In this document: in pieces, positions 26,739-50,416 of the stretch
Layout of the letters: each line of letters begins with the position of its first letter
How positions within the stretch are numbered: position 1 is the stretch's first letter
From: Polyporus tsugae
Lineage: Eukaryota > Basidiomycota > Agaricomycetes > Polyporales > Polyporaceae
Length of the DNA: 64,000 nt
Direction of reading: 5' to 3'
Assembly: GCA_024305745.1 (NCBI GenBank)
Contig: JAHRBS010000012.1
Location: 2,175,001-2,239,000 of the forward strand
The notes under the pieces: generated by a model
Told to the model about the DNA's origin: nothing
What the model saw: only the letters and a program-made list of their open reading frames with translations
Database searches by the model: none
Made by a program: the position numbers and the translations under genes

Positions 26739-27184
26739 TGTTACGACTGAGCATCGAGTAAGGATCAGGGATATGTACGAGACGAGCAGGAGCGCCAACA
26801 AGCACTTGTGCAGCCAGAGCAGAGCAAGGCTCAATGGTCAGGGCTGGAGACAAGATGTATTGAGTAAGTAGGTGTCTATGAGCAAAATACAGCGAGGCTT
26901 ACCTGGAGACAAGAGGTCAAAACTGAGGTCTCCAGGCAGCAAAGTACAGGTCCTTATATACGTATAGAGGACAATGAGAACCCGGGGACAATAGGTAACT
27001 ATAGACACGGGTGAATAATGGAAACGGAACAATAGCAACTATGAACAATAAGGAGCTATTGTGCTAAAGAACAAAGGACAAGATACAATGCAACGGAGAA
27101 CAATAAGTACAACGTGAGAAGTAGATTGTCCGGAAAAGGAAACTAAGGTGCTGATAGCAGGTGCCGAATGGAACATTCATGACA
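26739..27184 (-). repeat. Gypsy chromovirus 3' LTR (446 bp, minus copy)
   Basis: On minus it begins TGTCATGAATGTTCC and ends ...CAGTCGTAACA (TG...CA). A polypurine tract (AGGAGGGGGGTAT) precedes it, as expected for a 3' LTR. It matches the LTRs at 34,851-35,296 and 40,964-41,409 and has the same 446-bp length. Confidence 0.92.
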
Positions 27185-30100: not shown

Positions 30101-31147
30101 TCATGAGCACAGAGAATGTGCTGGGTGAATTGGCTAGCCCAAAGAACATAACATTGAGCTTGAACGGCCCTCAATTGGTCACGAAGGCAGCCTTCCACTC
30201 ATTGCCGGCCTGAACCTGCACATTGTTGGCCTTCTTAAGTTGATCCATCAGATCCAATACCAACGGTAGTGGGTAACGGCTCTTAATGGTGATCTCGTTG
30301 AGTCGCCGGTAGTCTTGGACTGGATGTAGGCTACCATCCTTCTTCTTGAGAAAGAAGAACGGCGACAACATTGGCGACTTCGACTCTTGAATATAGCCTT
30401 TGGCCAAGTTCTCAGCGAGAAACTTGTCAAGCTCTCCTTGTTCGCTGGGCAATAGGGGGTACACACGGGAATGGAACATCTTTGCATTGGGCACGAGCTC
30501 TATCGCATGGTCATAGGGTCCGTGTTCTGGCAAACATTCGGACGCCTCTTTCGAGAACACGTGCAAGTATTCATGATAGTGCTCGGGTACGATCTCTTCA
30601 ACGGGGCGGACTTCCTTCTTCTGGTACTCTTGCTCAGGCAGTTGTTGTGAATATGTGTACGTCGCTGAAGCAAACAGTTGCGGAGCATCATAAAGGCGTC
30701 ATCCATCCTCCCATGCATTGAGAAGAGACGTCTCAGTTCTATCCCACTGTGGCAGGATTCCTGGTGGGCAGGGCCTATCCTCCTCCTTCTCCTCAGTCAT
30801 CACAGCTGCACACACCCTTCCAACTTTCCTAACCTTCTTTGCCCATTGGGGACCGTGGCACACCGTAAGCCGTATCTCCATATCATGCGCTTTGGTCCTG
30901 ACAGGTTCAGAGGTTCTCTGGCATGTCTCTGGACATCTCGACAGGTGTAGCGAGCCACATTCCCAGTCTACTTCAGGGTTGTGCCCGCACAGCCAGTCCA
31001 GGCCAATGATAACATCCTCTTCTCCTATATCTGTCACCACAAAGACCACTTTCTCCCTGTGGTCTCCTATTATATCCAACACAGCAACTTCAGTGATTGT
31101 ACCATCACAGTTTTCTGAACTGTCAATGTTGTACAGAGGGATTGGCC
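27185..31147 (-). pseudogene. Ty3/gypsy chromovirus pol, minus copy, 5' part lost
   Basis: Read leftwards: a protease remnant without the active-site region (31,147-30,699; PIPLYNID..., IGLDWL), RT (30,566-29,719), interruption by a solo LTR (29,271-29,713), RNase H, integrase (28,758-27,985), and integrase C-terminus plus chromodomain (27,954-27,217; YKVEEVLESR, LVHWKGWGP). The protein blocks at 30,566-30,171, 28,758-27,985 and 27,954-27,217 are identical to the plus copy, including the shared stop codons. RT 29,719-30,149 and protease are clearly diverged. RT has YLND instead of YxDD. Gag, LTR and leader are missing: at 31,148 the sequence switches abruptly into a copia LTR. Confidence 0.9.
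29271..29713 (+). mobile_element. Nested solo LTR of a related gypsy element (443 bp)
   Basis: It begins TGTTATGA and ends TCATAACA (8-bp inverted ends) and is flanked on both sides by CCCAT (29,266-29,270 and 29,714-29,718), an exact 5-bp target duplication. It splits the RT/RNase H part of the minus gypsy copy, which is uninterrupted in the plus copy. It is related to but clearly diverged from the 446-bp LTRs. No internal region is present, so this is a solo LTR formed by LTR-LTR recombination. Confidence 0.93.
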
Positions 31148-31574
31148 TGTTGAAATTGGTGCTGTAGCGCGCACTCTTTTGACCGCCCCAAGTCCCACTT
31201 TGTACCATACATACTAGATACTGTGCCCAACCCTTTGGTATTTCCCACATTGCTATATTTCAATTTCTCATAGAGATATACCATACTCTTACATAGTGAC
31301 TTGGTTTAGTGTGGATGCCATCCCCTCTCTAGAGTGGGCTCTACCTTAGTCATTTCTCGTCCTCTGGGCGCTAGAATGGTGCCAGTTTGTGTAGGATCAC
31401 GTAAGCTATGTAGCACATGCTCAGTGCGCTGTCACCTCGCCTCTGTCGAGCTCTGTAGGCCTTAGACTTCTTAGAGCTCAACTTAGGTGAGTAGTTTAGT
31501 TTCCTGTACATGATAGACTTCTTAGAGCTCGACTCAGGCCATTGTGACCACTCTAAGGCGCACTGCAGCCAACA
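31148..31574 (+). repeat. Copia-family LTR (427 bp) at a chimeric junction
   Basis: It begins TGTTGAAATTGG and ends GCAGCCAACA. It is the reverse-complement relative of the copia 5' LTR at 50,417-50,842, including the duplicated AGACTTCTTAGAGCTC motif. The flanks TGGCC (left) and CAACA (right) do not match, and the gypsy sequence does not resume on its right. This is therefore not a simple solo-LTR insertion but a recombination or deletion junction. Confidence 0.85.
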
Positions 31575-33663
31575 CAACAACACTTACAGTGAGGGGGCCA
31601 CAGCTCCCCAGTGCACACCATGCTCGATGACCTCGGCAACTAGATGAATGGGTTAGTGAGGCTGTAGTGACAAAGAAGCAAGAAGGTTGATGTACGGTTG
31701 TGAGTGCACCCAAACAATGTTCTCCACATGAGCCTTTGTGCATGTATGGATCTCGCGGAGTGTGGACTCAGCAGCATTGAGTGTGGCACTTGTCTGAGCT
31801 GTCTTCTTAATGGTGTGTTCGAGGGTGGTGTTCTGGAAGTGGTAGCATGCCTCGGAAAGTGAAAGGAGTGAAGTGGTGAGGTTCTCCTGCGTGCACTTCA
31901 AGAACGTGCCACAGGTGATGTACAAGTATTCTTTGGCAAAATCACAGAGCTAGCGAGCATTGGGACGATCTGCCTCGAAATGAAGGGCAAGAAAATGGTA
32001 GAGCTCCTCGAACAAAGAATCAATGAACTCGGTAGGAGCAAGCACACGGGTACACATGAGAAAATCGGACATGATGAATGCGGTGTTGAAGGTCCTCGGC
32101 TCGTCATCCTGGGGGTGAGTGCTGGAAGGAGTGGTGCCATGAGTGTCAGAGGTAGAAGGTTCGGATCCCTTAGCATGGACAGTGCAAGAGGTGTGGTCAA
32201 CAAGCTCATTGAGGATGAAGGAGTCGAGGAAGGTGGACAACATAGTGGATGAACTGGAAGCTGGAGATGAGCACACAACCGTGGCCTTAAAAAATCCTAT
32301 TGGGTGGGCCAGCAAATTATGCTGAGTGCTGCAGCGGCACTTACCTGCAGCACTTCCACCGTAATTCCCTGCCTGTCACACCTGCAGCACTTCCGCCGTA
32401 ATTCCCTGCCTGTCACAAATTGTAGTTGTCCTTGTACAGATCTTGGTCAACCAATTCAGGCATTCCCTCAGCCTCGGTGAGCTCAGTTACGATGAGATCT
32501 CGGAACCTGCACATGTACTGAGCGAGACAATGCATGTGGGGACCCCAATCGGATGGTGGATTTGCGAGCTGTTCAATCATTTGGCAGATGCGGAGTGCTG
32601 CTTCACCAATGTCAGTGACTCGGGCAACATGTTCTTCAATGTGTCGGATACTGAGGCGCATTTGAATGTGGGAACTTTCCTGCTCATAAAATACCTCAAG
32701 CTGGTAGTCTTCAGGTCCATGAAGGGTGCTGCCCCTGATGTTGCACAGCTAGGCCTCCATGTGGTCGCTTTCATCTGGAAAGAAGCTGGGGAAGTCCTAT
32801 TTGAAGGCCTCATGTCAGTGGCAATGTTCCTGGAATCACGGCACTTATAATCTGTTTGACCGCCTCATGGAGCAGCCTCTTGAGCTTCTCCTCAGTGAAC
32901 GACATGGCCGTGAACTTTGCAACTTGGTCGTTCATCTGTCGTACAAGAGTGTCAGCGACTGTGTTGCGAAGTCTTTCACATTCCTCTTGTGCGGTTTTAG
33001 GAGTAAAGTTATGTTTGTTGGCTTGGGTGGTGAACATTGTGGATGAAATGGAAGGCTGTTGAGCGCTCGGAGCTTCAAGCGAAGCCTTCTTCACGGGCCT
33101 TGCGCAACCCCTCTTTTCTCATACAGATCATGGGATGTGTCATTCACCACGGAGTCTCCTGTTCCCAACCCCACAGCCGTGCATGGCACCCTCCTAGTTC
33201 CTGCAGCTGGGCTTTCTCATGCTCATATTCATGCATCTGAGACATTCCATTTTGGAGCATCATCACAGCCTCACCCTATCATATACTAGGCAAATCTTCA
33301 CCTCCTACCTCTGGCGCTCCTGCGCCTCCTTCAACGCCTGCTCAAACACTTCTGCCGAGTCTCCAATGGTGGTGTTGTATCCCATCCAAGAGAATATGGT
33401 TGTACTGGGTTCCACAATCAGTCTTTGGTGATGATATTTGGCCACAACCTCCTGTGATGTACCACCTTTTTATTTTTATTTAGCAAAAGTGACAAGGTGA
33501 AGCTTTGAATCCTCAACTTGAAGCTTTTCAGTGCCTATGTGTTGCTCAATCCAGCCGACATCTCTTTCAAGACGCTCTTTGAGTGCGGGCAACATGAGGC
33601 TAGCCAGGTCATTGATATTGTGGTGCATGTCTTCGGCGGCCAGCATGGTGGGGCATGATAGAC
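31575..33663 (-). pseudogene. Degenerate coding remnants of unknown origin
   Basis: Minus-strand fragments look like former protein: 32,315-31,950 (MLAHPIGFFKATV..., open after one stop into a second block to about 31,690), 32,661-32,413 (IEEHVARVTDIGEAALRI..., helical) and 33,094-32,810 (CERLRNTVADTLVRQMNDQ..., coiled-coil-like). They are in different frames and broken by stops. I recognise no family. The order on minus suggests one decayed gene or transposon ORF. Confidence 0.4.
32344..32417. repeat. Tandem duplication of 37 bp
   Basis: Two adjoining copies (32,344-32,380 and 32,381-32,417) begin CCTGCAGCACTTCC and end CTGCCTGTCACA, with one A/G mismatch. Confidence 0.9.
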
Positions 33664-33749
33664 AACAATAAGTACAATGTGAAAAGTAGATTGTCTGAAA
33701 AAGAAAACTAAGGTGCTGATAGCAGGCACTGAATAGAACATTCATAGCA
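33664..33749 (-). repeat. CpG-depleted gypsy LTR fragment (5' 86 bp)
   Basis: On minus, TATGAATGTTCTATTCAGTG onward matches the first ~85 bp of the 446-bp LTR. Its CpGs have been converted: TTCGGCGCC became TTCAGTGCC and CCGGAC became TCAGAC. It lies 29 bp outside the left arm of the palindrome and points away from it. Confidence 0.8.
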
Positions 33750-33778
33750 TACAACCTTAGCAAGATCCTTGAGTGGTG

Positions 33779-34235
33779 ATAAACCAACCATGAGACTTGT
33801 CAATGAAGATTTCTTAGGCTCAACCCCATAGTGCATTGGATCTGTGAGATCGTCCAAGGGCACCTCTTTTGCATTGATCAGAAGGCTCAGCACCTAGAGG
33901 TGAGGACAGCTACCTGCAAGGATCACAAGGCTAGCCAGTGTCACAGAAGAGAGGCAACTGCTACTGAAAGGTGCTTCAGTTGACTTCAGCAGCCAATCAC
34001 ACATTTGAAGAAGTGATCACTGTAGATGTAGCACAACCTGAGCATGGTAAGATTGGTCATGCTCTCTAGCTGGATGAGGGGGATTATGGTCTCTGGTCTG
34101 GATATATCAGGTTCTGAGTCCAAGCCTCTGTAGAGGCACTCCTTGAAGCTATTAGTGCTGCCCAAATGGATCCCAACTTCATGGATATGGGGATGAGATG
34201 AATGGTCCTTCAGAGCCATACAGAGTGCCCTAACA
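33779..34235. repeat. Palindrome left arm (457 bp)
   Basis: This is the inverted copy of 34,394-34,850; paired coordinates sum to 68,629. The same peptide, EVGIHLGSTNSFKECLYRG within a longer frame, is readable from both arms, so the arms are essentially identical. The peptide has a leucine-rich look (MTNLTMLRL) but I cannot name it. The loop between the arms is 158 bp. Confidence 0.92.
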
Positions 34236-34393
34236 AATTTAAGACTGAGCATTGTCTGTGGAGAGAGAAACATTTTCCCATCTGAGAGGCAATCTACTCT
34301 ATTTCCCACACTGAAGGCACTCTATATGCACTTTGATGAATTGGAGTGGTACATTGTCTTCCTCAACATTATTGCTTCTCCTATCCTCAAAAC

Positions 34394-34850
34394 TGTTAGG
34401 GCACTCTGTATGGCTCTGAAGGACCATTCATCTCATCCCCATATCCATGAAGTTGGGATCCATTTGGGCAGCACTAATAGCTTCAAGGAGTGCCTCTACA
34501 GAGGCTTGGACTCAGAACCTGATATATCCAGACCAGAGACCATAATCCCCCTCATCCAGCTAGAGAGCATGACCAATCTTACCATGCTCAGGTTGTGCTA
34601 CATCTACAGTGATCACTTCTTCAAATGTGTGATTGGCTGCTGAAGTCAACTGAAGCACCTTTCAGTAGCAGTTGCCTCTCTTCTGTGACACTGGCTAGCC
34701 TTGTGATCCTTGCAGGTAGCTGTCCTCACCTCTAGGTGCTGAGCCTTCTGATCAATGCAAAAGAGGTGCCCTTGGACGATCTCACAGATCCAATGCACTA
34801 TGGGGTTGAGCCTGAGAAATCTTCATTGACAAGTCTCATGGTTGGTTTAT
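34394..34850. repeat. Palindrome right arm (457 bp)
   Basis: Partner of 33,779-34,235. Its outer end coincides to the base with the start of the gypsy 5' LTR at 34,851. Confidence 0.92.
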
Positions 34851-35296
34851 TGTCATGAATGTTCCATTCGGCGCCTGCTATCAGCACCTTAGTTTCCTTT
34901 TCCGGACAATCTACTTCTCACGTTGTACTTATTGTTCTCCGTTGCATTGTATCTTGTCCTTTGTTCTTTAGCACAATAGCTCCTTATTGTCCATAGTTGC
35001 TATTGTTCCGTTTCCATTATTCACCCGTGTCTATAGTTACCTATTGTCCCCGGGTTCTCATTGTCCTCTATACGTATATAAGGACCTGTACTTTGCTGCC
35101 TGGAGACCTCAGTTTTGACCTCTTGTCTCCAGGTAAGCCTCACTGTATTTCGCTCGTAGACACCTACTTACTCAATACATCTTGTCTCCAGCCCTGACCG
35201 TTGAGCCTTGCTCTGCTCTCGCTGCACAAGTGCTCGTCGGCGCTCCTGCTCGTCTCATATGTATCCCTGATCCTTGCTCGATGCTCAGTTGTAACA
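34851..35296 (+). repeat. Gypsy 5' LTR (446 bp)
   Basis: It begins TGTCATGAATGTTCC and ends GCTCAGTTGTAACA. It contains a TATATAAGG box at about 35,074, ahead of the probable R region. Confidence 0.95.
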
Positions 35297-35729
35297 TTAG
35301 GTCAAAACTTCTCCACGAGCACCAGCGCACTTTTCCCCTGGAGTTTACACATGTTTATCATTCCCCTTTTCCCCTCGTATGGTACGCACTCAGACCCTCT
35401 GTGTTGGTGTAGCGTAGTACGTGCTCTAGTCACATCATCGGACGTGGTCTTGATTCAACTCGAGGCTTGCCACTTTCAGTGGTACAGTGCGCGGAAAGCT
35501 CCTAACCCGAGACCCCGGCACTGACAGAAGTGGTCCGCCTCACGGCGTGGAAGGCTAGAGAAAAGCGGCGAAATGAAACCAAGGCAGGACACCCTTGGAC
35601 TCGTGTTCCTTGAGGTTTAGACACAGCAATAGGCCGAGGAGGCTGAGCAGACCGTGTTGGGTTGTGCACCAGCCATCCATCGTTCCTGGATAGGAAGCAA
35701 GACACTTCATCCTGGCTTGCAAAGAGTTC
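35297..35729 (+). other. Gypsy leader between 5' LTR and gag
   Basis: This is the untranslated leader of the plus element. The same segment, heavily CpG-decayed, recurs at 41,410-41,850. It contains an agaricomycete-retroelement-like stretch but no ORF I would call. Confidence 0.5.
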
Positions 35730-37016
35730 GTGCACACCTTTCATCCCTTTGAAGTTCAGGATGAGTACTGGGATAAGGACAAGAAACAGTGGTCTGTCTG
35801 TGTAACACAACCGTGTCCACACCAGAGTCGTACTTGGAGACCTATTCCTGAGGCAGTCAAAGGTCTCACACCTCGACTCATCACTACCGAAGACCAACCA
35901 GCCCTGATCCTTGCACACATCACCAGACCCCCTACATCTGCCTTTTGTGACTCCGAACGTCTGCCTCTTTGCCAAGCGGCAGCAGTTGCAACTAGTAACC
36001 CCGCATCCCGCCCTGCGTCCCACCCTACCTCACGTCCAACCTCTCAACCCCAAAGCCGCAAGCCGACCCCCACTGGGACTCCGTCCACATCCCCTCGTCT
36101 TGGAGGACTAACCCTCCAGACCACTGCCAAACTCGTTAGACAACAGCTTGCATCCCGCACCTCCAATTCCCCCATCACTTCGACCTCAGCGCTACCCAAG
36201 GTTGAAGCAGAACCCGAGCAAGAGGACTCGAACCCTGCAGTCGAGGAGAAACCCAAACGAGAAACTGTAGTTCTCAACACCCCGACACCTCCATCCTCAC
36301 CACCCTCATCGTCCTCTTCCTCTTCGCCCTCATTGCGAGCACTGTTGCCTGCTCCCACCATGGCCATACCCACCCCCTTTGATGTCTCCAAACTTTTCTC
36401 CCAAGTTGCCCCTCGCAAGTACAATGGAAAACTCATGCAGGAAGGGCTCCGCTTTGTAGCCAACGCCCGCATCTACTACGATCTTCTCGAGGTGCAAGGT
36501 GTCGTGCACGAGATCCGCTGGATCACGATCCTCAACAAGTTGACCGGTGGCGCTGCTGAGTGGGCCAGCCCATACATCGTCATGGTGGCCAGCGGCAATG
36601 TTGCATGGTCAGACTTTGCGGCCTTTGAAGGGTCATTCAAGGTGCACTTCTGTGCTGCAAACGACGAAGAAGCGGCCATCGCAGAACTCGCCAAACTCTG
36701 CAAGGCTTCTCATCGGCTTGGCACCATCAAGGACTACACCAGCCAATTCAATGCCATTGCTGCTCGCACCAGGTTTGGCGATGCAGACAAACGCAAATGG
36801 TACCGCACGGCGCTCCCTTACAAGATCAAGGACACCTTCGCGACCACATCACACGACATCTTGGACCTCACCAAGATCCAGAAAGTCACACTGCAGATGG
36901 ACCAGCAACTTGCCGTGCGCGAGGAGGAATGGCTGAAGCAATTTGGATGGAAGAAGAAGGGCAAAAAGGCAGCCGCCTCTGGTTTGGGCAAGAAGAAGTT
37001 TGATGGTGAGTGCTAG
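35730..37016 (+). CDS. Gypsy Gag with stop inside the zinc knuckle
   Basis: The frame encodes 428 residues: a proline/serine/threonine-rich N-terminal half and then the retrotransposon Gag domain (FSQVAPRKYNGKLMQEGLRF, TGGAAEWASPYI, DYTSQFNAIAARTRFGD). A lysine-rich tail leads to GECstopNCGEKGHPMFCC, a CX2CX4HX4C zinc knuckle broken by TAG at 37,014-37,016. After the stop the frame stays open to about 37,196. It could be a nonsense mutation or a readthrough site. The position inside the knuckle and the other lesions favour mutation. Gag packages the element RNA into virus-like particles in the cytoplasm. Confidence 0.85.
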   Translation: MHTFHPFEVQDEYWDKDKKQWSVCVTQPCPHQSRTWRPIPEAVKGLTPRLITTEDQPALILAHITRPPTSAFCDSERLPLCQAAAVATSNPASRPASHPTSRPTSQPQSRKPTPTGTPSTSPRLGGLTLQTTAKLVRQQLASRTSNSPITSTSALPKVEAEPEQEDSNPAVEEKPKRETVVLNTPTPPSSPPSSSSSSSPSLRALLPAPTMAIPTPFDVSKLFSQVAPRKYNGKLMQEGLRFVANARIYYDLLEVQGVVHEIRWITILNKLTGGAAEWASPYIVMVASGNVAWSDFAAFEGSFKVHFCAANDEEAAIAELAKLCKASHRLGTIKDYTSQFNAIAARTRFGDADKRKWYRTALPYKIKDTFATTSHDILDLTKIQKVTLQMDQQLAVREEEWLKQFGWKKKGKKAAASGLGKKKFDGEC

Positions 37017-37192
37017 AACTGCGGTGAGAAAGGACATCCCATGTTCTGCTGCCCAAAGCCCAAGGTCGAGGGCCAATGGGCTGCCTCTTCCTCCTCATCC
37101 GGTACCAATGAGCTCACAACACTCAAGGCCCAGCTCAAGGCAATGGAGGAGAAGATTGCCATCCTTACGGTGGTCAATAAGAAAGAGGGTTT

Positions 37193-40100
37193 TTGATTAG
37201 AACCGCATTGGATGCTGCGCATGCTGGTTCCTGTAGTAATAGTCGATTTTCTGTACTGGGTTCATCGTTTGTATATGAAGTAAATCATGATGGTCAACAC
37301 TTTCATATACCGGTACGGTTAATTGGCAAGCAGCGACATAAGGACATTGTAGCTATGGTAGATAGTGGTCCTACTACTAAGTTCCTACATAGACGATTCG
37401 TAGAACAGAATAGGGTTACGACGAGGAAGTTGGCAAGGCCAATTCCTCTGTACAACATCGACGGTTCAGAGAACCGTGATGGTACAATCACAGAGGTTGC
37501 CGTGTTGGATATGGCAATCAGAGACCACAGGGAGAAGGTGGTCTTTGTAGTGATGGATATAGGAGAAGAGGATGTCATCATCGGCCTTGACTGGCTACAC
37601 AAGCACAACCCTGAAGTAGACTGGGAATGTGGCTCACTGCAGCTGTCGAGATGTCCAGAGACATGCCTGCCTAACCAGAGAACCTCTGAACCTGTCGAGA
37701 CCAAAGCACATGATACGGAGGTACGGCTTATGGCGCACCGCGGTCCTCGACGGGCAAAGAAGGTTAGGAAGGTTGGAAGGGTGTGTGCAGCTGTGATGAC
37801 CAAGGAGAAGGAGGAGGATAGGCCCTGGCCGCCAGGATTCCTGCCGCGGTGGGATGGAACTGAGACGTCTCTTCTCAATGCATGGGAGGATGGATGACGC
37901 CTTTATGGTGCTCCGCAACTGTTTGCTTCAGCGACGTACACATATTCACAACAACTGCCTGAGCAAGAGTACCAGGAGAAGGAAGTCCGCCCCGTTGAAG
38001 AGATCGTACCCGAGCACTATCATGAATACTTGCACGTGTTCTCGAAAGAGGCGTCCGAATGTTTGCCAGAACACGGACCCTATGACCATGCGATAGAGCT
38101 CGTGCCCAATGCAAAGATGTTCCATTCCCGTGTGTACCCCCTATTGCCCAGCGAACAAGGAGAGCTTGACAAGTTTCTCGCTGAGAACTTGGCCAAAGGC
38201 TATATTCAAGAGTCGAAGTCGCCAATGTTGTCGCCGTTCTTCTTTCTCAAGAAGAAGGATGGTAGCCTACATCCAGTCCAAGACTACCGGCGACTCAACG
38301 AGATCACCATTAAGAGCCGTTACCCACTACCGTTGGTATTGGATCTGATGGATCAACTTAAGAAGGCCAACAATGTGCAGGTTCAGGCCGGCAATGAGTG
38401 GAAGGCTGCCTTCGTGACCAATTGAGGGCCGTTCAAGCTCAATGTTATGTTCTTTGGGCTAGCCAATTCACCCAGCACATTCTCTGTGCTCATGAACGAC
38501 ATCTTCAAGGACCTCATCATACTCGGCAAAGTCACTATCTACCTTAATGACATCCTCATATTCACTGACAGTCTCAAGGAACACCACACATTGGTGCACG
38601 AGGTCCTGAAACATCTTAAGGAGAACGATCTGTTCTGCAAGCCAGAGAAGTGTGAGTTCAAACAGCCTAAGGTGGAATACCTCAGTGTACTCGTCTCGGA
38701 GAACTGCCTAGAGATGGACCTGGTGAGGGTGAAGGGTATCACAGATTGGCCTGTCCCTCAGAATGCCACAGACGTACGGAAGTTCCGCAGTTTTGCAAAC
38801 TCCTATTGGCAGTTCATAAAGGACTTTAGTGCCATCTGCAAACCCTTGGATTGCCTCACGGGCAATGCACCATGGCAATGGGGAGACAAAGAGCAGTCTG
38901 CCTTTGACAAGCTCAAGCGCTGCTTCACCAAAAGCCCTGTCCTGATGATCTATGATCTAGACCGCAACACCCGCATCGAAGTCGACACATCTGGCTTCGC
39001 TACAGGCGCGGTTCTGTCTCAGGAGGGGGAAGATGGCAAATGGCACCCCATCACTTTTCACTCTGAGTCGATGAACGACGCTGAATGCAACTACGAGATC
39101 TACAGCAAGGACATGCTCGCCATCATTTGTGCTCTGTAAGCCTGGCACCATTACTTCAAAGGTCTCCCTAGCGTGTTTGAGATCCAGTCAAACCACAAGA
39201 ACCTCGAGTATTGGCACACAGCACAGAACCTCACGTGCAGGCAGGCCGCAGGCACAATGGGCTCTCTATCTGTCACGATTCGACTTTGTCATCTCGCACA
39301 AGCCTGGGACATCTAATGGTAGGGCCGATGCACTGTCGAGATGGCCTGACCACTAGCACGAGGATGCAGATGACAATCTCAGTCGAGTCTTGTTGCAGCC
39401 AGAACGATTCCGGGTATTGGCAGCCAAGAGAGGGCACCTATCGGTGGTTCCAGAGAAGGCACTGCTTCGGTGTATCCGTGAGTGTGGAGAACGCAAACAG
39501 GAGGTCATGGAGGCACTCAGTAAGCTGGACAAGCTTGGACCAGCGCGTCTTCAGAATGACTTGGTGGACTGGAACAGTGAGCAAGGCCTGCTACTGTACC
39601 GAGGCAAAGTCTACATCCTCAAGGACGACGCACTGCATGCTGAGATTGTACGCATCCACCGCGACCTCCCACCTGCTGGACACCCTGGGCAGTCGAAGAC
39701 GTTGGAGTTGATTACACGAAACTACTGGTGTCCGGGCATGGCAAAGTTCATTAAGGATTATATTGAGACCTGCAACACCTGTCATTGCGGCAAGGCTTCA
39801 CATGCCAAACTGCAAGGTCCTCTTCAACCAAACAAAATCCCTGATGGCCCGGGCCAGGTTGTGACGTGCAACTTCATCACTGGACTCCCAGAGGTGGATG
39901 GATACAACGCGCTTCAGCTCATCGCTGATCGGCATGGAAAGATGATACATCTTATTCCCTGCACCAAGGAGATCGACGCGGAAGGAGCTGCTGACAACTT
40001 CATCCAAGAACACTTTCATCTTCATGAGCTGCCATGGAAGATCATCTCTAATCGTGGGCCCCAGTTCTCAAGCAAGCTCTTCCACGCCGTGCTCAAGGGA

Positions 40101-40931
40101 CTCGGCATAGAAAGTGCAATGTCCACAGCCTACCACCCTCAGATGGATGGGCAATCAAAATGATGGAACCAGGAGATAGAGGCGTACCTTCGTATGTTCT
40201 GCTCATGGCGCCACGATGACTGGGTCAAGTGGCTGCCGATCGCAGAGTTCGCCTTTAACTCGCACAAGCACTCATCAACGGGTTACTCGCTGTTCTACCT
40301 CATGTACGGCTTCGAACCCCAGTTCCATATTCCAATGTTGCCAACAACGGTGCCCACAGCAGATGAACGGCGAGAGGAGTTGCGGCAAGCACAAGAGGAC
40401 GCTACCGCGGCCTTGACTCTAGCAGCTGAGCAGATGAAGGAGTACTATGATCGATATGTCCGTGAGGCGCCAGAGTTCAAGGGAGGCCAGAAGGTGTGGC
40501 TCAACATGAGGAACTTCCGTGTTCCTGGAGTCTTTCGGAAACTGGTAGATTGGTACGCTAGCCTGTATCCGGTTGTACGCAAGGTGGGCAATCTGGCTTA
40601 CGAGCTCAGACTCCCCAAGGACCTTGTAATCCATCCAGTGTTCCATGTCTCTCTCTTGCTCCTGCACAAGGAGAGTCGACTCCCCAGTCATCATCCGGCA
40701 GAGCCAGCGGCAATTGAAGTGGAGGGGGAGGAGGAGTATAAAGTGGAGGAAGTGTTGGAGTCGCGGCGGTATGGGAGATGGAAGAAACTGCAATACCTCG
40801 TACACTGGAAGGGTTGGGGCCCTGCACACGACAGTTGGGAGGATGCAGTGGACCTCGCTAATGCACCACAACTTGTGCAAAAATTCCATTCAACGCATGC
40901 AAAGGCACCTGGTCCTCTCAAGAAGACTTAG
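37193..40931 (+). pseudogene. Gypsy Pol: protease, RT, RNase H, integrase, chromodomain
   Basis: Pol lies in the -1 frame relative to Gag. Protease: AMVDSGPTTKF (DSG intact) and IGLDWL. RT: SPMLSPFFFLKKKDGS, RRLNEITIKSRYPLP, MFFGLANSPSTF, and YLND where YxDD is expected. RNase [24 protein letters not shown] where TDHKNLEYW is usual. Integrase: HRDLPPAGH...CNTC zinc motif, CNFITGLP for xDFITGLP, SNRGPQF for SDRGPQF, GQSK for GQTE. Chromodomain: YKVEEVLESR...LVHWKGWGP. Stops: TGA 37,895-37,897, TGA 38,423-38,425, TAA 39,137-39,139, TAG 39,354-39,356, TGA 40,161-40,163, plus one frameshift near 39,240. The terminal stop is at 40,929-40,931. It is not autonomous. Confidence 0.93.
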
Positions 40932-40963
40932 TCGTGAAGGCACGACCCTTAGGAGGGGGGTAT

Positions 40964-41409
40964 TGTCATGAATGTTCCATTCGGCACCTGCTATCAGCAC
41001 CTTAGTTTCCTTTTCCGGACAATCTACTTCTCACGTTGTACTTATTGTTCTCCGTTGCATTGTATCTTGTCCTTTGTTCTTTAGCACAATAGCTCCTTAT
41101 TGTTCATAGTTGCTATTGTTCCGTTTCCATTATTCACCCGTGTCTATAGTTACCTATTGTCCCCGGGTTCTCATTGTCCTCTATACGTATATAAGGACCT
41201 GTACTTTGCTGCCTGGAGACCTCAGTTTTGACCTCTTGTCTCCAGGTAAGCCTCGCTGTATTTTGCTCGTAGACACCTACTTACTCAATATGTTTTGTCT
41301 CCAGCTCTGACTGTTGAGCCTTGCTCTGCTCTTGCTGCACAAGCACTCATCAATGCCCTTGCTCACTTTGTAAGTCTCCCTGGTCCTTACTTGACAGCCA
41401 GTTATAACA
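40964..41409 (+). repeat. Gypsy 3' LTR, hybrid of two subtypes
   Basis: Its first ~300 bp agree with the LTRs at 26,739 and 34,851. From about 41,270 it switches to the subtype seen in the solo LTR at 29,271: it ends CTCCCTGGTCC...CAGTTATAACA rather than ATCCCTGATCC...CAGTTGTAACA. The junction points to LTR-LTR recombination with the older element on its right. Confidence 0.85.
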
Positions 41410-43285: not shown

Positions 43286-44200
43286 AGTATATTTATTTTA
43301 TTTTATTTGGCTACCAACCAGCTGCTAGCTCAATCATTGTTGGAGCATACTCCTATAATTTTTGGATGTAAATAAGGGTCAATTGAGCCTTCATCCCCAG
43401 TCAAAATGCCTCTAAGAATGCTGGGGAATCCTGGAGAAAGGGAGTTAGATGCTAAAATTCAGTGGAGAACCATCAGAATAATTGCCACATAGGTGCTTAG
43501 TGCAGGCACTCCCATCACCACTACCATCACTGTCACTGACAGTCCTCTCCATCCTTAAGAACCCCTGGAATGGATAGAGATAGTTACTTGCTGTGCCTAG
43601 CATCATGTTTAATGCATCTCCTTACATGCTGCACTTGGATGGAATGACATTGCTCTCAGATTGCTGTCTGTCTCCCTTGTACTCTGCTCCCTTCCCTCAC
43701 TGCGGTAATTGTGGTATCCTGACTTTCTATCTGAGTTTGCATTGACCTTAAAATTCACTAACTGTGTCTCTAGGAATGCCCAAGCCCCCCACTGTGAGGC
43801 CTACCTCAGAACTATGATGGCCACTCTCTCCTGCTCCACCCCTGCCACAACTGCCTGGAGACAAGTGATTTTGTGGATGTCCGAGCTGCATAGGAAAGGG
43901 TCAAGTTTTCATCTCAAAAGGTGCCTAGATCTGGCATAAGGAGGTGTGAGAGCAAGGTATTGCATGCTGTATTTTCCATCCTCCGCATCCATTATATGCA
44001 CAATCAAGCAAGACCGGGAGGAAGAGGAACTGAGGAGAGCAGCCAAATGAGGGTCCATTGTGTTCAGCATCAAGATGTGATGATGAGAGCCCACTCCGCA
44101 GACATATGCGCACATCTGAGCTGCATACAGAGGCCTCTGCAGCAGACTCTTTCTGGGAGATTCAGGTAAGTGTGTTTCTTATAGTCTTCCATGCTCGAGC
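43286..44200. other. No gene recognised
   Basis: Short frames on both strands (for example 43,709-43,939 and 43,921-44,169, plus) have no recognisable domain. Possible splice signals around 44,166 (GTAAGTG) and the sequence beyond the inserted 249-bp element suggest a decayed gene whose intron received the insertion. Confidence 0.3.
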
Positions 44201-44449
44201 TATTAGCAGTGGAAAAGTGACCAGACCGGGGATTGAACCCAGGACCTTCTGGTTTGCACCCAGATGCTCTACCACTGAGCTATCTGGTCTTGGATTCAGT
44301 AGAGACACCAGTTTATTAGTGTAGATTAGTGTAACTGTAGCCCCATGTCACTACGGCATGCATGCTATGCACAGTACATTGAGGGGTCTTATGGCAGTTC
44401 AGGGACCAACTCCTGAAGGATGAGTAAGCATGATTACTGCATCCTAACA
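44201..44449 (-). mobile_element. 249-bp LTR-like element carrying a tRNA-Cys gene (copy 1)
   Basis: Read on minus it begins TGTTAGGATGCAG and ends CCACTGCTAATA. It is flanked by identical CGAGC pentamers (44,196-44,200 and 44,450-44,454), i.e. a 5-bp target duplication. The TGTTAG/CTAATA ends are a short imperfect inverted repeat. It is exactly as long as, and nearly identical to, the copy at 48,118-48,366 in the opposite orientation. No internal region, PBS or polypurine tract is attached, as for a solo LTR of a miniature element. Confidence 0.88.
44218..44289 (-). tRNA. tRNA-Cys(GCA)-like gene inside the 249-bp element (copy 1)
   Basis: 72 nt fold as a full cloverleaf: acceptor GACCAGA/TCTGGTC (7 bp), D-stem GCTC/GAGC, anticodon stem TCTGG/CCAGA with loop GTGCAAA (anticodon GCA, Cys), T-arm CTGGG-TTCAATC-CCCGG. 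It is followed by CTTTTC, a Pol III terminator. A-box TAGCTCAGTGGTAGAGC and B-box GGTCCTGGGTTCAATCC are present. G at position 32 and discriminator A are atypical for tRNA-Cys, so charging is uncertain. Confidence 0.75.
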
Positions 44450-44454
44450 CGAGC

Positions 44455-45255
44455 ATCGGAAATTACAGAACTAACACATATTTGGTTGATCTACAGGACA
44501 ATTGTGGTTCTATTCTCAATTTTCAGGGTCCAGACGGAGCACTGGATGCGGAGGTACCCTCCATGGGACATACATCACCTCAGTCAGTGGATTCCCCTTC
44601 TGCTGCTTCACCGCCATCCTCTCATCTAAGGCCGCAGCCCATTGATATCAGTCAAAATGATCCACCTAGTCAATCTATTCACGAGCCGCTCCCTGCAACT
44701 GGGATCTCCGAGATTGACATAGCCTAAAAGTTGTGAATGCGCTGTGGGCCAATTTTTATCTTTAGGACTCTCAATTGGATGACAATACCCTCTTTCATCT
44801 CCAGAACCCTTTGCATAATGTGATGCTCATGGGAAACCTATGCACATACAAATGTGATGCACGGAGGAAGGACAGGCCACAAACCAAAGGGTGCGAGTGG
44901 GTCCGAGCGTGCCACAGGACAAGGGCAAATGGAAAAACAAACAAACCCAGCTCCAAGAGCCAGGGTGACGAGCCACTAAAGACTTCGCTAAAGCCGAGTG
45001 GACCAAGGAACAAGCTTGCGGGCAGGACCGTCCAATGAGCGAGAATACGAGGGCACACAGATATTGCACTTTATGTGTGATTCAGCAAGTGGAGACTTCT
45101 TACGCGTGAGCTTCTGTGAGAGACAAAATGAGACAATACGAGACAAGTGATGAAATGCAGGGAGATGTAACCTGTCATCTGGAATTCATAATCTACCTAC
45201 TCAGTACACTGGGGAACCCTACACTACAACAACTGTATATGCTCGCTTGGATCAG
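44455..45255 (+). other. Decayed coding remnant, then no recognised gene
   Basis: A plus-strand frame at about 44,482-44,727 (GPDGALDAEVPSMG..., serine/proline-rich, ending GISEIDIA) follows a possible splice acceptor (TTTTCAG at 44,520). It could be an N-terminal exon of a transposase or other gene; I do not recognise it. The remainder to 45,255 shows only short frames. Confidence 0.3.
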
Positions 45256-45735
45256 ATGGCTACCTGGACCTGGACCTGCCTTGACAGACCACTAAGTTGC
45301 TGAACATGGGTCCAGGTTAAGTTGTGGGTAACCTGACCTGGACCCGCAAAATTACCTGCAGGTCCAGGTCTTGCGGGTCCAGGTCACCTATACTGCGGGT
45401 CAGTTGAGGATCCAGGTATAGGTTTACAGATTAGAATTACCCACACATATCTGCAAAGACCTGTGGCTTCAATGATATAGCTAGCCACTGTTATGTGTAG
45501 ATGAATATAATCCCTTGTTGGCTATGTATAAGTCTTTGTTGATTGCATTTAGGCTACTTAGCAGATATATTTGCAGGTAGTTGACCTGGATCTGTGGGTC
45601 CAGATCAATGGCAGGTATAACCTGTGCGGGTCTAGGTCCTTTGCGGGTAATACCTATGCAGGTCTAGGTTGGGGCTTTAGATGTTCAATTACCTGCAGGT
45701 TTGGGTCTAGGTAACCTGTGGGTCGACCTACATTC
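45256..45735. repeat. Cluster of CAGGTCCAGGT / ACCTGGACC motifs
   Basis: Within about 480 bp, variants of GGTCCAGGT and its complement ACCTGGACC occur a dozen or so times in both orientations, often joined to GCGGGT or TGCAGGT (for example 45,266, 45,310, 45,360, 45,377, 45,586, 45,658). It is irregular in spacing, not a simple tandem array. Confidence 0.65.
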
Positions 45736-46204
45736 AGCCTTAGACCACTTGCCCTAACCATGCAGAATAATGACTTGCAAGCCAACCAGATACGTGCTAT
45801 ATAGATGCATGAGCTGTCTTGCGCGAGGACTCTGAAAACTACTGGGCAACTCACTGTGTGCCTGACCTATTGGTCACACAGCAGGCACATAGCTTCTCCG
45901 ATGAGAACTGACTCAATGGGCTGTACACTTGTGCAGACCTGAGCCTTCACCAGACAGTGCCTGTGATGGATGTCAGTAATGCTCAGGGTGGTGATGCGCG
46001 ATCTGACTGCACGCAGCTTATTGAGACTGGTCTGCTTGCAGAGGGACTGTGCCATGCTATACGGTTCCTCCTCACACGATGGGGGATCCTCCTGCTAGAA
46101 CCCTGTTGGTGTCAGACATGCTGAAACAGGGCTGCAAGCGTGCATATTGTGTAAGTCTTGCATAAGCTAGGGTTGGTGATCAAGGCGGGGAGACCCCTGT
46201 CAGG

Positions 46205-46810
46205 ATGCACTCGGAACAGCCAGAGGCGCAAAGATACGGGGTCAGAACCTGTTCAGACCCTTACAGCAAGCTGGCCATTCTCACTCCAGATGAGCGACTA
46301 GCCCTGAAACTGTATCTGATAGGCACAAACAGAGCAGACAACATCTATGTGAATCACTGCAACACCATCCTTGAGCAACATTCAGAGGATGAGATCTCCT
46401 CCTTGTATGGCCTCCAAAGGGTCATTGCAGAACTGAGTGAAGTCAAATATCTATGGCATGACATATGTCCATACTCTTGCATGATGTACAGGACCCCACC
46501 ATCGCATTTGATTGCTACAAGACTGGGACAAAGACGCCTCTCTGCCAGTTTGCCACCTTCCCTCTCGGGCCTCAAATTCAATTGCGCTTCCAGTCCCCAG
46601 AAGGTGCACACAATATAAAACACTGGGAGTGCAGGATGGAGGAGATCTTGGAGAGGTTGGTCAAAGGGCACAGGCAAGCTTGACGACATTGGTGACATCT
46701 ACAAGAGTTCAGACTTCTGGGATGCATACTGCAAGGGTCACATTGAGAAGGACAATGTGTGCATCATCTTCTCAATGGCACCTGTTATTTCTAGAATTGT
46801 AACACAATCT
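46205..46810 (+). pseudogene. Plavaka-like (CACTA superfamily) transposase remnant
   Basis: Two frames together give the conserved order ILTPDERLALKLYL, SLYGLQRVIAELSEVKYLW, HDICPYSCMMY, then PLCQFATFPLGPQIQLRFQS, PEGAHNIKHWECRMEEILE, DIGDIYKSSDFWDAYCKG and DNVCIIFSMAP. The blocks CPxSCxxx, xFxTxPLGPQLQ and SxDYxDAxxxG are hallmarks of agaricomycete Plavaka-type transposases. The ORF is frameshifted around 46,500 and ends where the catalytic part should begin. It is non-functional. Confidence 0.75.
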
Positions 46811-47072
46811 CCCTGTTATCTGATGCACCAACAATGCTGGCAGAGGGCAGCATTGTATTATAATATGCCTGACCAGGATAGTATTATACAACTCAGCCAA
46901 TGCAGTTATACTACTACAGCCTAGTGGCTGTATTATGACACCATTATAACTACCCCAGATGTTGTAATACTACTTTGAGCAGTGATTTAATCTGCTGTCT
47001 GTATTTGGGCACTTTTTTAATATCTTTACTAATCAACCAGTGCTTGATTGATCTAATCTGCTGTGCACTTGA
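46811..47072. other. AT-rich spacer
   Basis: Non-coding, with short repeats of TATTATAA and of the CTTGATTGATCTAATCTGCTG / CTTGATCAGTCCGATCTACTG type at about 47,042-47,090. No feature is supported. Confidence 0.4.
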
Positions 47073-48117
47073 TCAGTCCGATCTACTGTGCGCTTTTGGG
47101 CGCTTATTTGATGATCTGGCTTCCTCAAATGGTAGAAGCCCAGCAAGGGTGAGGATGCCTTGAATTGACGCCCACTTGGGTGTGGGGGCGAAGGTCTCAT
47201 TGTACTCAAAGCCAGGACACTGGGAGAAGCCCTTTGCAACGAGGCGACCCTTGTACCGCTCAATCGAGCCGTCTGCATTGCGCTTGACACGGAACACCCA
47301 GCGGGAGCCAATAGCCTTGCGCCCTGGAGGGAGGAGGACGAGTTCGAAGGTGCCATTCTCGATGAGGGACTGGATTTCATCCTGGGCAGCCTTGAGCCAC
47401 CTGGCATGCTCGTCTGCGTCGAGTTCCATGACCTCTGTGATCGACCTGGGTTCACCCAAGTGCTCCTGGTTCGCCTTGGACGCATGCTCGACCACAGACT
47501 CAAATGCGACCTCAAGGGCCTCATCGTAGGTCAGGTAGTCGTAGTGCTGGCCAGAGTAGACATCCTCGATGCCAGCCATCATCGCATGGAGTGCATCTTC
47601 ATCACTGCCATCGTCGTGACCTAGATAGTCAAGTTCATTGTCAGAGGACGTGGGACTTGGTGGGGGCGACATGGAGTGAGGGGCGAAGGGATTGGCACAA
47701 GGAGGAGGAGCTGGGTCGTCGACTGGTGCGTCGATGAGAGGATCTGGTGAGAAAGAGTTGCGCTGTGGTGGTTCAGGCGATGCAGCAGGTGGAGCAGGGG
47801 ATGCAGAGCAAATGCGAAGATGCTGTGGGACAAGGTTCTGGCGTTCAAGCTCTCTATTGTTGAGGGAACCCTGGTAGCGAGCAGAGTGCGATGGGAGCTG
47901 TTTGCGAGCGAGTGCAGGGTATGGTCTGAAACCAGCTTCGCCTTGTGCTGGCTGGTGGATGGATGGTGCCCGAGGATGAACTGCTGGTGCAGGAGGCGGT
48001 GATGGAGGCGCATGAGCAATCACTGGAGCATGTGGAGGAACTGGCTGAGGCAGGGGGCCTTGTGCACAAGGAGGCTGAGGTGCAGGAGGCCAAGGTGGAG
48101 ATGGTGAACGCTGTGGG

Positions 48118-48366
48118 TGTTAGGATGCAGTAATCATGCTTACTCATCCTTCAGGAGTTGGTCCCTGAACTGCCATAAGACCCCTCAATGTACTGTGCAT
48201 AGCATGCATGCCGTAGTGACATGGGGCTACAGTTACACTAATCTACACTAATAAACTGGTGTCTCTACTAAACCCAAGACCAGATAGCTCAGTGGTAGAG
48301 CATCTGGGTGCAAACCAGAAGGTCCTGGGTTTAATCTCTGGTCTGGTCACTTTTCCACTGCTAATA
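48118..48366 (+). mobile_element. 249-bp LTR-like element carrying a tRNA-Cys gene (copy 2)
   Basis: It begins TGTTAGGATGCAG and ends CCACTGCTAATA. It is flanked by GTGGG on both sides (48,113-48,117 and 48,367-48,371), an exact 5-bp target duplication. It is inserted in the linker region of the copia pol pseudogene, so its insertion is younger than that element. It has the same length as copy 1 and only scattered transitions separate them. Confidence 0.9.
48278..48349 (+). tRNA. tRNA-Cys(GCA)-like gene inside the 249-bp element (copy 2, decayed T-arm)
   Basis: The acceptor (GACCAGA/TCTGGTC), D-arm and anticodon arm (TCTGG-GTGCAAA-CCAGA) are identical to copy 1. The T-arm has lost pairing through C-to-T changes (TTCAATC to TTTAATC, CCCGG to TCTGG), so the B box is weakened. 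TTTT follows at 48,351-48,354. It is probably a pseudo-tRNA. Confidence 0.7.
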
Positions 48367-50416
48367 GTGGGGACTGCTAATGTGGTGGTGCAGCTGGTGG
48401 TGGTGCGATTTGCAGTGCAGGAGGTGCAGGAGGTGCAGGATTGTCCTGGGGTTGTGCGTCTGCATCTGCGTCTCCAGGGACGTCCACATCATCGAGGGGC
48501 AGGCCAAAGACGTTGATGAAGGGCAAGTTGCCTGGGAAGCACTGCTCGTCAAAGACTGCACGCGACGAGATGATCACCTTCTTCGCTGCAGGGTCCCAGA
48601 ATCGCCAGGCCTTTGTGCCCTCAGGGTAGCCAATGAAGATGCACTTCCTCGTGTGTGGCTGCAGCGCTTTGCAGTCCTTCTTGCGAATGAGCACATAGGC
48701 CAGACAGCCAAAGACGCAAAAGTAGGACACGTCTGGCTTGCGCCCATCGCCCTTCCAAGCGGTGTAGGGGATATCTCTGTTGAGAGCCGAGGTGGGCATG
48801 CGGTTGCGTGTATGGATGAAGGCAGAGACAGCATGGCCCCAGAACGAAGGAGGCAGCTTTCCCTGGGCAAGGAGAGCGGTGGCCCCTTCAGACATCGTCC
48901 TGTTAGCTCACTCTGCGACACCGTTCTGGTGGGGCTCGTCTGGCTCTGTGTGCTGCCTGTGGATGCTGTGTTCTGCGCAGTAGTCAATGAACTCCTGGCC
49001 CATGTACTCGCCACCCTTGTTGTCGCATGTGGCCTTGATGCGCAGGCCCAGGCAGTTCTCAGCGTATGCCTTGAACACCTTGAATGCAGCAAAGGTGTTG
49101 CTCTTGAGCCTGAGGTAAGCCATGGCCCAGAAACGTGTCGAGTCGTCAACAAAGACCATCCAGTACTAGTAGCCCTCAGCTGTGCGCACTGGGAGCTTGC
49201 CCTTGAGGTCTGTGTGGACAAGGGCAAGGCGAATGAACCGCCTGGAGGCAAAGCAAGGGATGGGGTGGCGATTGAGCTTGCCAGCAAGGCAGGGCTCGCA
49301 AATCGCATCAGGTGCACGCTGGGAGCGGATCCTGAGCCCTTGGACGAGCTCCTTGCAAATTGCAGAGCGCAGATCATCGAGGTTGATGTGTGAGCAGCGC
49401 TGGTGCCAGAGTGCGAGGTCTTTGCTGCTGGTGGTCGATGCAGAGAGTGCAGCCATCGATTGGGGGATAGTGCGACCAAGGAGGTAGCCCACATTGTGCG
49501 CATTGACCTGGGCCTCAAAGCGAAGCTTCCCCTGGTGGTAGAACAGCGCAGAGGACGCATGCAACTCGACAGTGTAGCCCTTCTCGCGTGTGAGGTGGAA
49601 AACAGACAGCAGGTTGCTGGTAAGTGCAGGGACATGGAGGACGTTGTGTAGTACAACAGCAGGGGGTAAAACACCGCCCTTCTGCTCAGGTTGGAACACC
49701 ACAGACCCTAAACCCGCAGAGTAGACAATGTGCGAGTTGGCAAGTCGAATGGGGATGGTGTGGGGCGAGTAGGAGCGAAACCAGTTGCGGTGGGGCGTCA
49801 TGTGTGCAGAGGCACCTGTGTCGGTGTTCCAGTGAGCAGCAGCAGGAGTGGAGAGCCAGGACGAGCGATCTGAGGCCGAGAGGAGGGCAGAGGCGCAACC
49901 AGCACTCACAGCAGACTGCTGGAGTTCATCCTGCGACCCAAAGGTGGCAAAGGATGTGCGAGGGGCCTCAAAGGCGTCCTCCTGGTGCTCTGAATGATGG
50001 GGGTGATGCTGAATGCACTGGGAGGCCCTGCGCTTTGCCTGTGCGCTGGCATCACGCTTAGTGAAGCACTGGGCCTCTGAGTGGTTGAGGCGACCGCAGA
50101 ACGTGCAGGAGAGCATGGAGGCGAAGTGGGATGGACCAGAGAGGTAGTTGCTGCAATTAGAGATGTTGGAGTGCGGTGCAGCAGCCAGCGTCATGGTGGA
50201 GGGGTGGTGACGTGGCACGCGATTTACAGGCGAAAGGACGAAGTGAGGGGACAAAAACTGAGCGCAGGAGCAACAAAAGTTGAAAAGGGGGTCCCAGAGC
50301 GAAGAGTGAGGCACACAGAGGGTGCAGAGGTGGAATGGGAGCCAGGGGAGGCTCTAGAGTGGTTGGATAGGCAGGGATGGACGTCTAGAGGCGGTCAGGG
50401 TGCAGGGCTCATAATC

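Follow-up and report, generated by a model that had tools for sequence, protein, structure and literature searches.

A mobile 249-bp unit with a tRNA(GCA)-like gene in Polyporus tsugae, very probably the solo long terminal repeat of a Helenus-type retrotransposon

In a stretch of 64,000 bp from the genome of the basidiomycete Polyporus tsugae (assembly GCA_024305745.1, contig JAHRBS010000012.1, positions 2,175,001 to 2,239,000; hereafter the window), two 249-bp units, at 44,201-44,449 on the minus strand and at 48,118-48,366 on the plus strand, each enclose a tRNA-like gene with the anticodon GCA. These units are very probably solo long terminal repeats (LTRs) of a terminal-repeat retrotransposon in miniature (TRIM) of the Helenus type (TRIMp3), that is, of a short non-coding LTR retrotransposon with a tRNA-like gene within its LTR, and they probably represent a new Helenus family. 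That the unit is mobile, LTR-like and inserted by an integrase-type process can be stated firmly, because exact natural empty sites have been recovered for three insertions and the flanks of one window copy overlap by 5 bp at 20 of 20 places. This kind of element has already been described in 2024 under the name Helenus; added here are the proof by empty sites, a cysteine anticodon combined with adenine at the discriminator position (A73), and the confinement to one cluster of transposable elements (TEs) per contig.

Copies, target duplications and natural empty sites

In sense orientation both units of the window begin with TGTTAG and end with CTAATA. Aligned as an inverted pair (44,200-44,450 versus 48,117-48,367) they are 98% identical, and each is bordered by a perfect 5-bp target-site duplication (TSD) which differs between the two, CGAGC for the first and GTGGG for the second (Table 1), in agreement with a preliminary description of this DNA in which near-identical units with these ends and duplications had been reported. 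A search of the whole genome (43.24 Mb on 18 contigs, the window being part of contig C16; copy counts from searches are lower bounds) with the unit as query recovered 17 copies on 10 contigs, and copies beyond the window pair, as had been anticipated, do exist. The tRNA part alone as query retrieved the same 17 copies, and the first 159 bp of the unit retrieved nothing beyond them at E<=10 genome-wide. Fifteen of the 17 copies measure 249 bp, including L010, L011 and L016, in which the match spanned 247 bp and the two first bases TA were added by hand; L012 measures 250 bp, and L017, which is 5'-truncated, 198 bp. All 17 copies end with CTAATA, and the three copies L010, L011 and L016 begin with TATTAG instead of TGTTAG, so that their ends form a perfect 6-bp inverted repeat. 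The mean pairwise difference is 6.7 positions (16 copies, L017 left out), with L003 identical to L004, L005 nearly identical to both, and the duplicate pair L010 and L011 likewise identical, and 40 of the 56 minority letters (L011 left out) are changes from C to T or from G to A.

Perfect TSDs, read in sense orientation, border eight of the 17 copies (L001, L003, L005, L008, L009, L013, L014 and L016), L016 among them despite its TATTAG start, and four of five letters agree in L002 and L007. The duplications at insertions outside the window, on which the preliminary reading depended, are hence present. For any one copy, the probability of a perfect 5-mer by chance is about 1/1024, and chance as the origin of the pattern is rejected by the TSD 5-mers together with the empty sites.

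Empty sites give direct evidence for insertion with a 5-bp staggered cut. The 250-bp left flank of the 48,118 copy matches 20 other places in the genome, some of which are possibly duplicates of each other, and at 20 of 20 the right flank follows with an overlap of exactly 5 bp; at one further place, C17:1829054, the right flank is matched in part only. The overlapping letters read GTGGG in six of six fetched places out of the 20. Among the fetched loci, five insertions have natural empty sites at which the flanks overlap by 5 bp, namely L001 (6 places), L003 (2), L014 (6), L009 (1) and L013 (1). At all 14 places of the first three the letters are identical to the TSD (6/6, 2/2 and 6/6, respectively), and four of five TSD letters are present at the one place of L009; the empty site of L013 is weak (3/5 letters, 71% alignment) and is left out of the exact count. 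For L014, one alternative pairing of the flanks, 1.86 kb apart, occurs at L053. The exact sites at L001, L003 and L014 and the 20 uniform overlaps bear out the preliminary view of a mobile, integrase-type, LTR-like element with the tRNA in sense.

These observations also bear on two alternative origins. If the units were ordinary tRNA-Cys genes spread by segmental duplication, shared flanks would be in place, and such cases occur: L010 and L011 have identical flanks on both sides and represent a segmental duplication, and L006 shares its 3' flank with L003 but differs in its 5' flank. Eight different TSD 5-mers and the natural empty sites contradict this origin, as do the ordinary tRNA-Cys(GCA) genes, four or more in number, elsewhere in the genome (L059, L060, L066 and L067), which have other stems than the unit and carry T73; segmental duplication is refuted by the empty sites and can practically be discounted. 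The copies are not segmental duplicates alone, although L010/L011 are duplicated, and L003 and L006 share one flank. Equally, a tRNA-derived short interspersed element (SINE) moved by a long interspersed element would combine a tRNA having A and B boxes with a length such as 249 bp. However, the tRNA lies at the 3' end, where TTTT and 12 bp come after it; the 160 bp that precede the tRNA move as well, although they lie outside a transcript begun at the tRNA; a poly-A or simple-repeat tail is absent; and the TSD measures 5 bp in the eight copies with perfect duplications as well as at the empty sites, with the CTAATA end in 17/17 copies. Fixed termini and 5-bp duplications refute the SINE reading, which is hardly credible, and the unit had rightly been set apart from a plain SINE.

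The tRNA-like part

ARAGORN predicts a tRNA in both window units, with the anticodon GCA, and in 17/17 copies overall, and Rfam detects it in 16/17 (L015 is not listed). The Rfam scores amount to 69.3 bits (E 4.8e-13) for the 44,201 copy and 57.6 bits (E 8.1e-10) for the 48,118 copy, and these two RF00005 tRNAs are the sole matches in an Rfam scan of the window at gathering scores. The A box is present in 17/17 copies, the B box GGTTCRANCC is intact in 12/17 and CACTTTT occurs in 17/17. A full cloverleaf with both boxes had been ascribed to the two window units, which is correct for the 44,201 copy, with its A and B boxes and a cloverleaf-like fold; in the 48,118 copy the B box is damaged (GGTTTAATCT, without the invariant C) and the minimum-energy fold is no cloverleaf.

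The designation as a tRNA-Cys gene is based on the anticodon. The discriminator is A73 in the unit, as opposed to T73 in all four canonical tRNA-Cys genes, and U73 is an identity requirement of tRNA-Cys. When 20 nuclear tRNAs were compared by MAFFT over 72 letters, identity reached 48 with Ile, 46-47 with Cys and up to 45 with Ala, and the likeness to the canonical Cys genes lies mainly in the A-box region. An Ile-like tRNA body (57/72 versus 48 for Cys) was dropped, since the alignment behind it was gap-ridden and MAFFT gives 48/72 for Ile. Spread of working Cys tRNA genes by the unit is unlikely, because the discriminator is A73 rather than T73 and the identity with Cys does not exceed that with Ile. 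The four ordinary genes, which were recovered via Rfam (a typed pattern for ordinary tRNA-Cys gave five matches, none of them among these four), rule out the unit as the only source of Cys tRNA in the genome.

Nucleotide diversity (pi) is 0.035 in the tRNA part as compared with 0.024 in the preceding 159 bp. The tRNA part is thus not better conserved than the rest of the unit, and nothing therefore points to purifying selection for a functional tRNA. Similarity among ordinary multi-copy tRNA genes (20 genes, 19 loci) extends little further than about 12 bp outside the gene, whereas the tRNA of the unit moves together with 160 bp before it and 16 bp after it. The tRNA-like part most likely acts as an RNA polymerase III (Pol III) promoter rather than as a supply of Cys tRNA.

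That the units are solo LTRs with a tRNA which the host nevertheless expresses, processes and uses seems quite improbable. The A box kept in 17/17 and the B box kept in 12/17 copies would accord with such use, as would the cloverleaf-like 44,201 copy and the 11 best of 63 Rfam tRNA scores, which belong to unit copies; the A73 discriminator, the 46-47/72 identity with canonical Cys, no closer than the 48/72 with Ile, and the higher pi of the tRNA part speak against it, and most tRNAs of Helenus elements have been judged non-functional (Kojima, 2024, PMC10886601). A variant, in which the LTR-borne RNA would mature as a true tRNA with a Cys anticodon and A73, by which Cys codons might be read with another amino acid or tRNA fragments might be supplied, is scarcely to be expected.

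The unit also affects the inventory of tRNA genes. The 63 Rfam tRNA matches genome-wide comprise 16 units, 10 matches on C18, apparently a mitochondrion-like contig, and 37 other nuclear matches, 20 of which were typed and 17 left untyped; the top 11 of the 63, with up to 72 bits, are unit copies. Counts of tRNA genes in such genomes are inflated by transposon copies with top Rfam scores, an annotation trap, because 17 of the 21 tRNA(GCA) genes identified are unit copies (the 17 untyped nuclear matches standing outside this count).

Probable solo LTRs, a proposed cycle and a putative helper

Judged by its ends and its TSDs, the unit would be an LTR, and its copies look like solo LTRs of a family seen in the present genome as single LTRs only. 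Several observations weigh against this interpretation. There is no pair of copies on the same strand within 10 kb among the 17 copies genome-wide; a pattern of an intact B box with GGTTATGAG 15-45 bp behind it, which covers undiverged B boxes and primer-binding sites (PBS) of the initiator tRNA-Met type, has zero matches genome-wide; and no PBS, polypurine tract (PPT) or internal region was found, the flanks of the copies showing no common inner sequence. Furthermore, the end dinucleotides are TG..TA (TA..TA in three copies) rather than TG..CA, the unit and the LTR of the Copia copy in L044 share nothing beyond an 11-bp match at chance level, and the TSD agrees in at most three of five letters in seven of 17 copies (L004, L006, L010, L011, L012, L015 and L017). 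A two-LTR form with PBS and PPT, for which a search of the assembly had been suggested, was thus found neither among the 17 copies and their flanks nor by the pattern of B box and initiator-Met-type PBS. Pairs of units on C6, C7 and C11, with spacings of about 10-11.7 kb, were considered as the LTRs of a long element and rejected, with L010/L011 having duplicated flanks, L003/L006 one shared flank and L008 its own TSD.

The copies without matching 5-mers would be compatible with recombination between copies or with local deletion. In L012 and L015, one flank recurs among the fetched loci while the other, bar about 30 bp, does not, and the flanks of L004 lie 1.43 kb apart at a C17 locus.

The short inverted ends suggest a further alternative, namely that the unit is a complete DNA element resembling a miniature inverted-repeat transposable element (MITE), moved by an integrase-like transposase as in Ginger. 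Ginger elements possess integrase-like transposases. The 6-bp near-perfect inverted ends (TGTTAG versus TATTAG), perfect in L010, L011 and L016, would fit such an element, as would 5-bp TSDs and 17 copies with no two-LTR form. Yet the inverted part comprises just 6 bp, and the ends of LTRs are short inverted repeats as well; no autonomous partner was seen, the first 159 bp having no further match at E<=10; and the match to Helenus is more specific, with a tRNA in the LTR, 5-bp TSDs, solo LTRs and the corresponding Copia primer type in the genome. This origin is considered unlikely, and solo LTRs of a Helenus-type TRIM are the preferred reading.

In the cycle proposed for such a TRIM, the tRNA-like part would provide an internal Pol III promoter, with transcription starting near unit position 160 in the 5' LTR, and the LTR would be divided into U3 (about 1-159), R (about 160-237) and U5 (the last 12 bp). 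Polymerase might occasionally read through the weak TTTT, pass over a short internal region and stop at the TTTT of the 3' LTR. Proteins of a Ty1/Copia element, the putative helper, would copy this RNA in trans, and the Copia integrase would insert the DNA by a 5-bp staggered cut. Recombination between the two LTRs of this presumed earlier form would then delete the internal part and leave single 249-bp LTRs, and recombination between different copies might yield units without matching 5-mers.

A candidate for the helper is the Copia family represented in L044, with an LTR that starts with TGTTGAAG and has the outer end GCAGCCAACA and the inner end GCAGCCAAACA. In L044, at 5,540-5,640, the inner Copia LTR end is followed by GGTTATGAGCCCTGCGCTC, which we take to be the complement of the anticodon arm of initiator tRNA-Met, not of a tRNA 3' end. 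A Copia with a primer site of the Helenus type is present; a suitable helper in the genome is therefore likely.

Genomic surroundings and known systems

Positions of the units and their parts are compiled in Table 1.

Table 1. The two Helenus-like units and the Copia remnant around the second one, in window positions
Feature	Position	Strand	Basis
Helenus-like solo LTR (probable), copy 1, 249 bp	44201..44449	-	Sequence, genome search, TSD analysis
5-bp target duplication CGAGC (plus-strand letters), left of copy 1	44196..44200		Sequence
5-bp target duplication CGAGC, right of copy 1	44450..44454		Sequence
tRNA-like gene, anticodon GCA, copy 1; R region predicted to start about here	44217..44289	-	ARAGORN, Rfam 69.3 bits, fold
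A box TAGCTCAGTGG, copy 1	44272..44282	-	Sequence; pattern in 17/17 copies
B box GGTTCAATCC, intact, copy 1	44230..44239	-	Sequence; intact in 12/17 copies
TTTT, possible weak Pol III terminator, copy 1	44213..44216	-	Sequence; CACTTTT in 17/17 copies
Helenus-like solo LTR (probable), copy 2, 249 bp, within Copia remnant	48118..48366	+	Sequence, genome search, empty sites
5-bp target duplication GTGGG, left of copy 2	48113..48117		Sequence; empty sites
5-bp target duplication GTGGG, right of copy 2	48367..48371		Sequence; empty sites
tRNA-like gene, anticodon GCA, copy 2, T arm weakened	48278..48350	+	ARAGORN, Rfam 57.6 bits, fold
A box TAGCTCAGTGG, copy 2	48285..48295	+	Sequence
B box, damaged (GGTTTAATCT), copy 2	48328..48337	+	Sequence
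TTTT, possible weak Pol III terminator, copy 2	48351..48354	+	Sequence
Interrupted Ty1/Copia gag-pol remnant hosting copy 2 (RVT_2, SH3_retrovirus, gag_pre-integrs, Pol_BBD)	47073..50314	-	Pfam; open reading frames (ORFs) 47073-48023, 48377-48895, 49166-50314

Among the best candidates genome-wide, 74 matches (the 17 units and the Copia relatives) fall on 13 contigs of 2.1-5.7 Mb, and per contig they are confined to a single stretch no longer than 57.3 kb, which on C3, C8 and C13 is under 1 kb each. One TE cluster per chromosome is the appearance of centromeres in some basidiomycetes, and the TE clusters holding the units look like such centromeric clusters. The window from about 20,000 rightwards represents the left part of the cluster of C16. 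Within the window, nested inverted and direct repeats of a chromodomain Gypsy element (Chromo, Integrase_H2C2, reverse transcriptase) extend over 26,739-41,409, with arms of 2.5 kb and 98% identity, and Helitron-like remnants at 20,575-24,746 on the minus strand carry Helitron_like_N and a PIF1 helicase in separate ORFs. Further to the left, at 7,740-14,790 on the plus strand, a polyketide-synthase-like gene extends over several ORFs, with acyltransferase and dehydratase domains in the ORF 8,487-9,722, the sole one scanned. The mixture of Copia, chromodomain Gypsy, Helitron and polyketide synthase sequences would fit a basidiomycete-like fungus. As a small, countable set of insertions, the units might be useful for testing LTR retrotransposition driven by Pol III.

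Among known systems, tRNA-derived SINEs (SINE2) are, like the unit, short non-coding repeats that contain a tRNA-like Pol III promoter; in contrast to the unit, their tRNA forms the 5' head, and neither a fixed 5-bp TSD nor fixed TG..TA termini are present. The Ty1/Copia elements of the present genome occupy the same TE clusters as the unit, but are protein-coding and have an unrelated LTR sequence. Ajax, a TRIM of nemerteans, resembles the unit in a Pol III small-RNA promoter within the LTR and in a 5-bp TSD, and differs in its 5S-derived part and its animal host (PMC10886601). Cassandra, which had been named as the nearest parallel, equally places a Pol III gene inside the LTR of a TRIM (introduction of PMC10886601); this gene is, however, a 5S rRNA and the hosts are land plants, as opposed to a tRNA in the unit and no 5S among the Rfam matches of the window.

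Closer than Cassandra is Helenus of the TRIMp3 group, which comprises TRIMs with tRNA-like sequences in their LTRs and includes elements from basidiomycete fungi (Kojima, 2024, PMC10886601); in a literature search judged by titles and the beginnings of abstracts, no other work on tRNA-bearing TRIM LTRs appeared. Helenus elements are non-coding, measured less than 1,000 bp at screening and, when full-length, possess two LTRs and a short internal region containing PBS and PPT (PMC10886601); in the present genome, with an LTR of 249 bp, no two-LTR form, internal region, PBS or PPT was found. The main text of PMC10886601 does not contain the term 'Cys', as compared with the anticodon GCA here, and the likeness of the unit to Helenus is one of described features. 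However, Helenus families known as solo LTRs only, without full-length copies, are described as well, and in fungal Helenus TSDs of 5 bp are found, the initiator-Met anticodon-arm primer is dominant and mobilisation by Copia has been inferred (PMC10886601). The unit corresponds to Helenus in the tRNA-like sequence, A and B boxes included, inside its probable LTR and in its basidiomycete host; with the fungal Helenus it has in common 5-bp TSDs, solo LTRs bordered by TSDs and the presence, alongside it in the genome, of a Copia whose primer site is presumably of the initiator-Met anticodon-arm type (PMC10886601).

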